Positions 24,479 to 63,848 of a DNA stretch of 64,000 nt are shown here, piece after piece. A program made the translations under genes and the position numbers. Positions within the stretch are counted from its first letter, which is position 1; each line of letters starts with the position of its first letter. The notes below the pieces were generated by a model, which was given only the letters and a program-made list of their open reading frames with translations, made no database searches and was not told the DNA's origin. Origin of the DNA: Streptomyces sp. P9-A2 (GTDB lineage Bacteria; Actinomycetota; Actinomycetes; Streptomycetales; Streptomycetaceae); NCBI RefSeq assembly GCF_036634175.1, contig NZ_JAZIFX010000001.1, positions 1,922,001 to 1,986,000 of the forward strand, written 5' to 3'.

Positions 24479-24991
24479 ATGCAGGGCGACCCCGAGGTCA
24501 TCGAATTCCTCAACGAGCAGCTGACCGCCGAGCTGACCGCGATCAACCAGTACTTCCTGCACTCGAAACTGCAGGACCACAAGGGCTGGACCAGGCTCGC
24601 CGAGCACACGCGCGCCGAGTCCTTCGACGAGATGCGGCATGCGGAGGTGCTCACCGACCGCATCCTGCTGCTCGACGGCCTGCCCAACTACCAGCGGCTC
24701 TTCCATGTGCGGGTCGGGCAGACGGTGACGGAGATGTTCCAGGCCGACCGGGAGGTCGAGGTCGAGGCCATCGACCGGCTGCGCCGGGGCGTGGAGGTCA
24801 TGCGCCACAAGAACGACATCACGTCCGCCAACATCTTCGAGGCGATCCTCGCCGACGAGGAGCAGCACATCGACTACCTGGACACCCAGCTGGAACTCAT
24901 CGAGAAGCTGGGCGAGGCACTGTACCTGTCGACGGTGATCGAGCAGTCCCAGCCGGACTCCTCGGGGAAGGGCACGCCCTCGGCCTACTAG
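24479..24991 (+). CDS. bfr: Bacterioferritin
   Basis: Iron-storage protein of 24 subunits with haem at subunit interfaces. It has 170 residues. Ferroxidase ligands are in the canonical places: Glu18, Glu51, His54, Glu94, Glu127 and His130. The haem ligand is Met52 (FDEMRHAEV). ATG 24479 has GGAAGGAG upstream. The stop codon TAG (24989-24991) is part of the CTAG tetramer at which a TIR element begins, so the annotated C-terminus (GKGTPSAY) may have been set by that insertion. Pairs functionally with bfd. Confidence 0.97.
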   Translation: MQGDPEVIEFLNEQLTAELTAINQYFLHSKLQDHKGWTRLAEHTRAESFDEMRHAEVLTDRILLLDGLPNYQRLFHVRVGQTVTEMFQADREVEVEAIDRLRRGVEVMRHKNDITSANIFEAILADEEQHIDYLDTQLELIEKLGEALYLSTVIEQSQPDSSGKGTPSAY

Positions 24992-25213
24992 GGTCTGTCC
25001 GGCGGATCGAGTCGGAGGTGACCGGCGGCGTCTGTCCGGCTGGGCCGAGCGAGGGCGATGAGGGCCCCTTCCGCGCGAGCGTGTTCGAACGTGGGGGAGC
25101 GTTCAGACGCAAGGCGGAGGAGGGCGTCGACGCGATGAGGGTCCCCTTGCTCGAAAAGCTTGAGGGAGGGCGTGCCGGCCCCCGTATCTCCGGCATGATC
25201 CGCCGGACAGACC
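24992..25213. mobile_element. TIR element family 1, copy A (222 bp, MITE-like)
   Basis: Begins GGTCTGTCCGGCGGATC and ends with the exact reverse complement, flanked by CTAG on the left and CTGG on the right. The interior is related to copies B and D (e.g. GCGTTCAGACGCAAGGCGG) but is shorter. It has no transposase frame. The flanking tetramers fit a 4-base YTAR target like that of the IS5 group, suggesting a non-autonomous derivative. Confidence 0.8.
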
Positions 25214-25228
25214 CTGGACCTACAGGGC

Positions 25229-25465
25229 TTACGCGGCTTCGGGGAGCTCCGTCGCGAGGGGCGGCCGGCCCTGGTCGGCCAGCTGGCGTCGGGGGCAGGC
25301 CCCCCGGCCGAGCAGCGCCTGGATGCGTCGCACGCAGCCGCCGCAGTCGGTGCCGGCCTTGCAGGCGGAGGCGATCTGCCGGGGAGTGCAGGCCCCGGCA
25401 TCCGCGTGACTCTTCACCTGTTCCTCGGTCACTCCGAAGCAGCTGCAGACGAACACGCGGTTCAC
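25229..25465 (-). CDS. bfd: Bacterioferritin-associated (2Fe-2S) ferredoxin
   Basis: Small electron donor that reduces stored iron in Bfr for release. It has 78 residues. The BFD-type [2Fe-2S] cysteines are all present: VFVCSCFGVTEEQV at the N-terminus and TDCGGCVRRIQALL about 30 residues later. GTG 25465 has GGGAGG upstream. A clear iron box lies 44 bases upstream. It is convergent with bfr and separated from it only by TIR element copy A. Confidence 0.93.
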   Translation of the reverse strand: MNRVFVCSCFGVTEEQVKSHADAGACTPRQIASACKAGTDCGGCVRRIQALLGRGACPRRQLADQGRPPLATELPEAA

Positions 25466-25508
25466 CTCCCGACGTAGCGTGGGTCGTGCCGCCCCGACTC
25501 CTGATCGG

Positions 25509-25527
25509 TGAGGCAAACCTAACCTTA
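25509..25527 (-). promoter_or_regulatory. Iron box (IdeR/DmdR1-type) upstream of bfd
   Basis: TGAGGCAAACCTAACCTTA agrees at 14 of 19 positions with the remembered DmdR/IdeR box TTAGGTTAGCCTAACCTAA, with an exact right half. It sits 44 bases before the bfd start, where a bound repressor would block transcription when iron is plentiful. Confidence 0.7.
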
Positions 25528-25552
25528 CCCGTCGCCCGGAGGGCATAAAAGT

Positions 25553-62211: not shown

Positions 62212-62290
62212 GGATTACCCCGGTGTCAGGATCTTCTGCGTCGATGCTTCTGGTGAGTGCGCTTCTTCGAGCGCGCGGATTCGGGTCCGC

Positions 62291-62902
62291 CTACTTGATC
62301 ATGTAGATCGTGGCGAAGAGGCCGATCCAGACGACATCGACGAAATGCCAGTAATAGGACACGACGATGGCCGCCGTCGCCTGGTCATGGGTGAACCTCC
62401 GAGCCGCGTAGGTCCGGCCCAGGACGAACAGGAAGGCGAAGAGGCCTCCCAGCACGTGCAGGCCATGGAAGCCGGTGGTCAGGTAGAAGACCGAACCGTA
62501 GGCGTCCGAGGAGATGGACAGACCCTCGTGCTTGACCAGCTCGGTGTACTCGATGACCTGGCCGGCGATGAAGACCGAGCCCATGATGAACGTGACGATG
62601 AACCACGCCCGGAGCTTCTTCACGTCACCGCGCTCGGCGGCGAAGACGCCGAGCTGGCAGGTGAGGGAGGAGAGCACCAGGATCGTGGTGTTCGTCAACG
62701 CGAACGGGAAGTTCAGCGTGTCGGCCTTCTCCGACCAGAAGTCGGGTCCGGTCACCGATCGCAGGGTGAAATACATTGCGAAGAGGGCCGCGAAGAACAT
62801 CAGTTCGGAACTCAGCCAGATGATGGTTCCGACGCTGGTGAGGTTCGGTCGATTGACCGACGGGTGCGCGTGCCCGGTGTCTACTGTCGTTGCTGTCGCC
62901 AC
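62291..62902 (-). CDS. ctaE: Cytochrome c oxidase subunit III
   Basis: The protein has 203 residues and five membrane helices (the short actinobacterial form). Conserved: TIIWLSSELMFFAALFAMYF, FYLTTGFHGLHVLGGLFAF, and SYYWHFVDVVWIGLFATIYM at the end. GTG 62902 begins ATATTVDTGHAHP. Heads the operon ctaE-qcrC-qcrA-qcrB of the bcc-aa3 supercomplex; subunits I and II are elsewhere. CATAAT 14 bases before the start could be its -10, giving a nearly leaderless transcript. Confidence 0.95.
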   Translation of the reverse strand: MATATTVDTGHAHPSVNRPNLTSVGTIIWLSSELMFFAALFAMYFTLRSVTGPDFWSEKADTLNFPFALTNTTILVLSSLTCQLGVFAAERGDVKKLRAWFIVTFIMGSVFIAGQVIEYTELVKHEGLSISSDAYGSVFYLTTGFHGLHVLGGLFAFLFVLGRTYAARRFTHDQATAAIVVSYYWHFVDVVWIGLFATIYMIK

Positions 62903-63103
62903 GCCGACATTATGTCGGTCGCTTATCCCGCCCTCACCCCGGGGGGTGCCGTTCGGTGCGTTCGCCCGTCGTGTACTGCCCGGATGGCCTATCGAAGCGG
63001 TGTCCGAACCAGTGTTGACAAGCTGCCGGAAGGGGTAGCATCCGCGCCATCGGCACCACTGGTGCCGGACGATGCCGTGCCCCCTCACGAGTGTGGAGGA
63101 ACA
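62903..63103. promoter_or_regulatory. Divergent promoter region ctaE / receiver protein
   Basis: The ctaE side has CATAAT (minus strand, about 62909-62914) close to the start codon. The plus side has TTGACA at 63015-63020 with TAGCAT at 63036-63041 (15-base spacing, shorter than ideal), then a good ribosome site GGAGGA for the gene at 63104. Confidence 0.45.
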
Positions 63104-63505
63104 ATGCAGGCGACCGCCACGGTGCTGGTCTACAGCGACAACTCAGGCACCCGGGAGCAGGTGCGGCTCGCCACCGGCCGGCGGCCGGCCCCGGACGTAC
63201 CCGTCGTGGAGTTCGTGGAGTGCGCGACCCTCCCGGCCGTCCTCAAGGAGCTGGAGCGGGGCGGGATCGATGTCTGCGTCCTGGACGGCGAGTCGTCGCC
63301 GGTGGGCGGTATGGGCGTGTGCCGCCAGATCAAGGACGAGATCTTCGCGTGTCCGCCGGTACTGCTGCTCATCGGCCGGCCCCAGGACGCCTGGCTGGCC
63401 ACCTGGAGCCGCGCGGAGGCCGCTGTGACGCTGCCGGTGGAGCCGGTGGAGTTCGCCTCGGCCCTGGCCTCCCTGCTGCGCCAGAAGCACGCCCTGAGCG
63501 TTTAG
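63104..63505 (+). CDS. Degenerate orphan receiver (response-regulator-like) protein
   Basis: The protein has 133 residues. A lone receiver fold: TVLVYSDNSGTREQVRLATG, the Asp in GIDVCVLDGESSPVGGM matches the phosphorylation site, but the usual acidic pair is reduced to SD and the conserved Lys is missing (AEAAVTLPVEPVEF). No output domain. ATG 63104 follows GGAGGA. The stop TAG belongs to TTAG, the left flank of TIR element D, so the original C-terminus may have differed. Divergent from ctaE. Probably an unphosphorylated signalling or scaffold protein. Confidence 0.8.
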   Translation: MQATATVLVYSDNSGTREQVRLATGRRPAPDVPVVEFVECATLPAVLKELERGGIDVCVLDGESSPVGGMGVCRQIKDEIFACPPVLLLIGRPQDAWLATWSRAEAAVTLPVEPVEFASALASLLRQKHALSV

Positions 63506-63829
63506 GGCCTGTCCGGCGGATCAGGCCGGGGACGCGGGGGCCGGCACGCCCTCCCCCAAGCTCTTCGAGCAGGGGCCCCAGCGGCGTTGTCGTCGGTTGC
63601 CGACTCCCCCGAGCTCTCGGCTTCTCCCCCGAACTCTCGGCTCCGCTCGAACAGGGGGGACCCCCATGAACAGGGGGACCCCCATCGCGTCGACGCCCTC
63701 CTCCGCCTTGCGGCTGAACGCTCCCCCACGCTCGAACATGCTCGCGCGGGAGGGTCCCTCATCGCCCCCCGCTCGGCCCGGCCGGACAGACGCCGCCGGT
63801 CACCTCCGGCTCGATCCGCCGGACAGACC
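63506..63829. mobile_element. TIR element family 1, copy D (324 bp, MITE-like)
   Basis: Begins GGCCTGTCCGGCGGATCA and ends GATCCGCCGGACAGACC, flanked by TTAG and CCAG. The interior is that of copy B in reverse order and the same total length (324), with C5/G5 palindromes at about 63549-63580 and 63605-63665. No transposase. Confidence 0.84.
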
Positions 63830-63848
63830 CCAGGGCCTTCCGTTCGGA

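Follow-up and report, generated by a model that had tools for sequence, protein, structure and literature searches.

Four short repeats with paired inverted ends, here named A to D, lie within 39 kb of one Streptomyces sequence (the window, 64,000 nucleotides in all, G000:C1:1922001-1986000 of the 8.39-Mb source genome, G000), and they raise the question of what moves such repeats and how they enter a dense, high-GC genome without breaking its genes. The answer favoured by sequence comparison, with a probability of about 0.8, is that the four are non-autonomous type II miniature inverted-repeat transposable elements (MITEs), mobilised in trans by an IS427-like transposase into YTAR targets with duplication of the TA. 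According to this model, a DDE transposase of the IS5 family, made like that of the IS427 group from two open reading frames (ORFs), would recognise the GGGNCTGTCCGGCGGATC ends of the MITEs and cut there, and the element would insert into YTAR, mostly CTAG, duplicating its central TA. At a TAG or TAA stop codon this duplication would rebuild TAG, while host composition would leave few CTAG within genes and selection would keep the insertions at stops and downstream of genes.

A genome-wide family and its autonomous relatives

A preliminary description of the window had reported four MITE-like copies with paired inverted ends and no transposase of their own, and all four were found where it placed them. 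The 17-mer GGYCTGTCCGGCGGATC, allowing three mismatches, has 10 matches in the window against a mean of 2.0 in shuffled sequences, a count that 100 shuffles never reached; of the eight ends of A to D, seven carry zero or one mismatch and one, the left end of C, carries two. The end sequence given in that description is present, although the conserved end, GGGYCTGTCCGGCGGATC (GGGYCTG...), extends one base further on each side and is followed outward by TA or a decayed TA. Copies B (54593-54916) and D (63506-63829) are, as had been noted, both 324 bp long and opposite in orientation, but the equal length is a coincidence, because their interiors differ and the twins of B elsewhere in the genome measure 291 and 309 bp, against 328 bp for B (outer A and T counted).

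Genome-wide, the 14-mer CTGTCCGGCGGATC has 78 matches with at most one mismatch, against 6 for a reversed-pattern control, and 20 pairs of inward-facing ends lie no more than 500 bp apart, with looser matching giving more. The search for paired ends that had been called for yields about 26-28 copies in the source genome: 28 were aligned (24 outside the window plus A to D, 77-428 bp), two of them (L053, L055) so degenerate that they are omitted from the stop-codon counts below, which use 26. Such lengths are too short for a transposase, in line with the earlier claim (the interiors were not scanned against Pfam). A to D are not one another's closest relatives in the 28-copy alignment. Four copies in 39 kb had been called dense, and in a post hoc simulation 104 of 20,000 uniform placements of 26 copies were as tight.

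Some copies moved recently, as follows from the near-identity of four of them. B, L049 and L079 are 100% identical over their shared length (the twins of B lie at about 2.587 and 7.984 Mb), B carrying an additional 19-bp unit that its two otherwise identical twins lack, and the identity of L066 to each of the three is 98.6-99.3%. TA is intact at 8 of 8 flanks in these four, whereas the remaining 24 copies retain it at 13 of 48 (Fisher 0.00014), so that loss of TA tracks copy age. In the spacer of about 150 bases that follows the gene upstream of copy A, which we take from its sequence to be bacterioferritin-like, the copy is absent in 23 of 23 congeners, and the orthologous stop codon of G003 (L140) forms part of an intact CTAG. 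The genome-wide copies, their paired inverted ends, the near-identical recent members and this absence of A from the congeners bear out the description of the repeats as MITE-like. As a separate observation, the 56 flank ends of the 28 oriented copies (TA 21, CA 18, TG 7, other 10) decay asymmetrically, TA having become CA in 18 cases and TG in 7; this T-to-C drift might reflect very-short-patch repair of CTAGG to CCAGG.

Elements with the same ends and a transposase occur in other Streptomyces. The exact 21-base pattern TAGGGNCTGTCCGGCGGATCA is present in 102 of 392 Streptomyces genomes, and among the matches listed (about 150 places) two ends lie about 1.64 kb apart in three genomes, G181, G302 and G311. 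The corresponding elements are 1638-1640 bp long, with TA on both flanks and 18-bp ends identical to those of the MITEs. Those of G181 and G311, which were read for genes, each encode an IS5-family transposase in two frames together with DUF6624; in G302, tblastn matches all three of the G181 proteins at 95-98%. The G181 proteins match PF13340, PF01609 and NF033580 (transposase) and PF20329, the second half of the transposase alone scoring 99.8 against a cut-off of 110, and the transposase frames overlap (ORFs 2096-2581 and 2575-2982 in L108, likewise two in L110). DUF6624 has matches at E 1e-20 in 106 of the 392 genomes, and five of 30 such loci read are full elements, namely the three already mentioned and those of G097 and G046, whose two ends together carry 1 and 3 mismatches, respectively; many of the remaining loci have no adjoining transposase. 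No further pair at the distance expected of an insertion sequence (IS) appeared when 36 genomes whose matches had only been counted were searched again with a stricter, ATG-ending pattern, although such a pattern may overlook one end of an element. The IS5-type partner that the preliminary description had supposed to act in trans is supported by the existence, elsewhere in Streptomyces, of IS5-family elements with identical ends; the IS5-like elements sharing these ends which it had proposed to look for are found in those species, and none was found in this genome.

Target site and stop codons

Five copies of the source genome (D, L035, L046, L061, L082) have an intact TA that is not preceded by C, and in 5 of 5 the opposite end shows C followed by TA or a decayed TA; the G181 and G302 elements present the same pattern, and copy C is too degenerate to inform on the matter. 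This arrangement supports a duplication of TA only, inside a YTAR target that would mostly be CTAG, and it places the elements closer to the IS427 group than to IS5 itself, because the flanks indicate a TA and not a 4-bp duplication. The target is also seen at 106 IS ends, where the base preceding TA is C in 85, T in 11 and G in 1. The earlier proposal that YTAR is duplicated as by IS5 therefore stands for the target but not for the length of the duplication, the two tetramers disagreeing in all five copies. Likewise, the flanking tetramers had been read correctly but assigned in the wrong order; they are CTAG/CTGG in A, CTAG/CTAG in B, CCAG/TTAG in C and TTAG/CCAG in D.

A gene ends exactly at the junction in 12 of the 26 copies of the source genome, its TAG consisting of the duplicated TA and the first G of the element. 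In copy A, the left TA and first G form the stop codon of the upstream bacterioferritin-like gene, and in copy D the low-coordinate TA plus G does the same for the upstream gene on the + strand. Stop-codon junctions are also seen in 11 of 16 MITEs from other genomes, three of them serving both convergent neighbours (these 16 were chosen for intact ends and TA, so that the proportion does not represent a random sample), and in 22 or 23 of 53 full elements according to the length of flank used (18 of 52 in a variant test, where the transposase itself masked some neighbours). The control sites in 400 kb of the source genome give 9 of 61 for CTAG and 16 of 122 for YTAR, and the one-sided Fisher values against the CTAG control are 0.003 (12/26), 0.00006 (11/16) and 0.001 (22/53). 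As the element starts with G and ends with C, a TA duplication at a TAG or TAA stop would rebuild TAG for the gene on one side or the other. Insertion likewise turns TAC and TAT codons into TAG, which makes it essential to inspect the codon of the joined empty site; this is already a stop in 11 of the 12 source-genome copies, 10 of the 11 MITEs from other genomes and 23 of 23 full elements, so that the genes are restored rather than cut.

The target itself is rare. In 400 kb there are 67 CTAG sites, where base composition predicts 1066 and a Markov model 178; CTAG is the 16th rarest tetramer, and only 6 of the 67 lie inside called genes, with 80% of the DNA coding; most targets are consequently at stops or between genes. 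Copies lie between divergent genes in 0 of the 23 cases with both neighbours called, against 54 of 333 adjacent gene pairs (Fisher 0.03). Insertions at stop codons would be harmless and persist, others being purged. A bolder proposal, which we put forward tentatively and at less than even odds, is that the G tip, the TA duplication and the CTAG target are adapted to land in native TAG stops and rebuild them, including stops shared by convergent genes, the near-absence of CTAG from coding DNA offering a low-cost niche from which single genes are shuttled between species.

The spacer occupied by copy A holds another element in the congener G009 (L146, about 1741-3000), an unrelated, IS630-like one (by eye) at the CTAG adjoining the stop codon of bfd. 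The niche may thus be open to TA-targeting elements of other kinds.

Competing readings

Several results weigh against mobilisation in trans by an IS427-like transposase with TA duplication. Although some copies look recent, the source genome yielded no transposase flanked by matching ends: 24 IS5-type loci (L084-L107, some overlapping), chosen from 29 PF13340 and 58 PF01609 matches, were read allowing five mismatches in 19, and none carries the ends; neither does DUF6624 have a match there at E 1e-20. The nearest transposase, at 256 kb (70%), has ends that differ in the inner half and a damaged left end. By eye, MITEs and autonomous element share only about 20 bp of end, and their interiors look unrelated. 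As to the target, 35 of the 56 flank ends are not TA, and with so many flanks decayed the TA rule rests on the intact ones; the 106 IS ends were selected by a score that favoured TA flanks, so that the count of TA is biased, though not that of the preceding base. No base-exact empty site was obtained for copy A or for L116 (G331), the relatives being 80-91% identical with spacers that cannot be aligned, and the genes used in the stop-codon counts were called by codon usage, not taken from annotation. The locus at 256 kb, the only one of the 24 with a related end pair, also leads to a different explanation, namely that the same MITEs are mobilised by this resident sibling, whose transposase would tolerate a different inner half of the end. 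This IS (region of G000:C1:256373, L085/L128) measures about 1.4 kb and has additional DNA separating its transposase from the right end; the transposase, an open frame of 294 aa, is 70% identical over 127 residues to the first frame of the transposase of the DUF6624 element, and its outer end (GGNNCTGTCCG at the right end) and CTAG flanks agree with those of the MITEs. Its ends are, however, of the GGGGCTGTCCGATGGGTC type, the inner part being GATGGGTC (as in L128) instead of GGCGGATC, and the left one is degenerate, and we hold it unlikely, if by no means negligible, that this element serves the family. Five relatives in the source genome were checked for inverted ends: L128 is the 256-kb IS, L130 and L132 each have different ends of their own, and no convincing inverted pair was seen in L129 or L131. 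The recent copies may have been moved by a partner since lost or by the 256-kb sibling.

The remaining alternatives concern the duplication, the present mobility and the stop codons. The element might duplicate the 4 bp of YTAR like IS5 of Escherichia coli, for which a 4-bp duplication is given in the part of the source available (PMC11677980), with ends GGYCTG... as in the preliminary description. Young copies do show CTAG on both sides, but the TTAG/GTAG flanks paired with C before TA or decayed TA, in the five copies and two elements named above, forbid 4 bp unless several bases changed, and such a duplication is improbable. The repeats might also be immobile now, structured sequences kept as bidirectional terminators between convergent genes, with ends that are relics; as RNA, copy B has a far stronger fold than 100 shuffled sequences (z -8.4) and the lack of copies between divergent genes points the same way, yet inverted ends fold in any MITE, and the recent identical copies, together with the absence of copy A from the orthologous site in 23 congeners, render this account quite improbable. 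Lastly, the stop-codon excess could be an artefact in which insertion into TAC or TAT gives TAG and the junction stops are truncations. Simulated insertion at any TA does produce a junction stop in 1857 of 3737 cases, a figure that also counts against the preferred model, and L061 and L125 look like such truncations; in 44 of 46 cases, nevertheless, the codon at the joined empty site already reads TAG or TAA, which leaves the artefact with very little probability.

Passenger genes, related systems and other features of the window

The second transposase frame was used to scan one genome per species, and the best 80 of 510 loci, mostly from Streptomyces, were retained, of which 54 could be delimited by paired ends and 26 could not. 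The delimited elements range from 951 bp (six elements, with the transposase only) to 2720 bp, and 48 of the 54 have extra DNA between the transposase and the right end, an ORF of at least 60 aa being called there from codon-position GC in 46. These cargo ORFs fall into 29 clusters, the largest being that of mycothiol-S-transferase (11 elements), followed by DUF6624 (6). Half of the 30 cargo ORFs scanned have a Pfam match and the other 15 have none; the matches comprise mycothiol-S-transferase (3), DUF6506, DUF7919, GNAT, AAA_33, DUF1062, MerR/TipAS, alpha/beta hydrolase, TetR, luciferase-like monooxygenase, erythromycin esterase, SDR and a sub-threshold SUKH. A tree was built from the 54 transposase fragments, with good support for only 10 of its 50 inner branches; on it the minimal form requires five changes, four of them forced by well-supported branches, and cargo has therefore been gained or lost repeatedly. 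Two elements of 2.72 kb (L206, L221) carry a short-chain dehydrogenase gene and a mycothiol-S-transferase tail, as if one cargo had replaced another.

Insertion sequences with passenger genes are known as transporter IS (tIS), and the elements longer than 951 bp (48 of 54, with an ORF called in 46) resemble them in having a non-transposition gene between the two ends. With the IS427 group, as far as the available part of PMC3281130 describes it (a 2-bp duplication in most Paracoccus members, 832-865 bp in its table), the present elements share an IS5-family transposase in two overlapping frames and probably, to judge from their flanks, a 2-bp duplication, but they are mostly 1.25-2.7 kb long and hold a passenger gene after the transposase, before the right end, only 6 of 54 being minimal (951 bp). 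IS5 of E. coli belongs to the same family and has a similar target (CTAG, CTAA), and differs in its 4-bp duplication, against what the flank pattern here suggests to be TA only. BrickBuilt of Porphyromonas and ATR of Neisseria are IS5-derived MITEs with ends common to IS5-family elements, BrickBuilt containing an internal minisatellite (PMC4596501, examined text) that resembles the 19-bp array of copy B; both have other ends and another host, and that text does not mention a link to stop codons. In IS481-type elements of Leifsonia, according to the portion of PMC2516522 available, an NCTAGN target supplies a stop codon, as CTAG does here, although the family is different and the stop is that of the transposase, not the restored stop of a host gene.

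A search by title and beginning of abstract, with most subscription papers outside it, found no description of this Streptomyces family, nor, by the same means, any of Streptomyces IS5-family elements with passenger genes, and Streptomyces is absent from the main text of a review of MITEs (PMC10969869). A MITE family with autonomous relatives is a known kind of system; what is new here is the cargo-bearing platform and the stop-codon niche. The comparison identifies the autonomous relatives of a Streptomyces repeat family, reveals that a platform of IS5 type transports a wide variety of genes, one at a time, and offers a testable rule for entering a dense high-GC genome without gene breakage, by means of a tetramer avoided in coding DNA and a rebuilt stop codon.

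Table 1. Repeat copies and adjoining genes, in window coordinates
Feature	Position	Strand	Remark
Copy A	24990-25215 (226 bp with outer A and T; core 24992-25213)	+	right flank decayed from TA to TG
Copy B	54591-54918 (328 bp)	+	TA at both ends
Copy C	56746-56886 (141 bp)	+	degenerate; second broken end at 56722-56738
Copy D	63504-63831 (328 bp)	-	orientation opposite to B
19-bp tandem array within copy B, 4.2 units	54694-54771		one unit more than in the twins of B
Gene upstream of copy A, presumably bacterioferritin-like	24425-24991	+	terminates in the TAG formed at the left end of A
Gene downstream of copy A, convergent with the preceding gene, presumably bacterioferritin-associated ferredoxin-like (bfd)	25229-25588	-	read from sequence

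Two pairs of inward-facing ends lie 0.5-9 kb apart in the source genome, a non-family pair of 675 bp (L071) and the left end of B with the right end of C, 2.27 kb apart, an interval with no transposase inside. Between B and C, which are oriented alike, lies a class-V aminotransferase gene (55144-56592, -), and the stretch 54591-56886 could in principle form a larger mobile unit. An Rfam scan of the window gave no match on any of the four copies. A G-rich palindromic repeat, GGGGGTCCCCCCTGCTCGA, stands free at 56943-56961 and 57052-57070 and also occurs inside B and D, with 5 matches against 0.16 expected. The window further contains two riboswitches, SAM-IV at 57207-57323 (-) and TPP at 17672-17783 (+).

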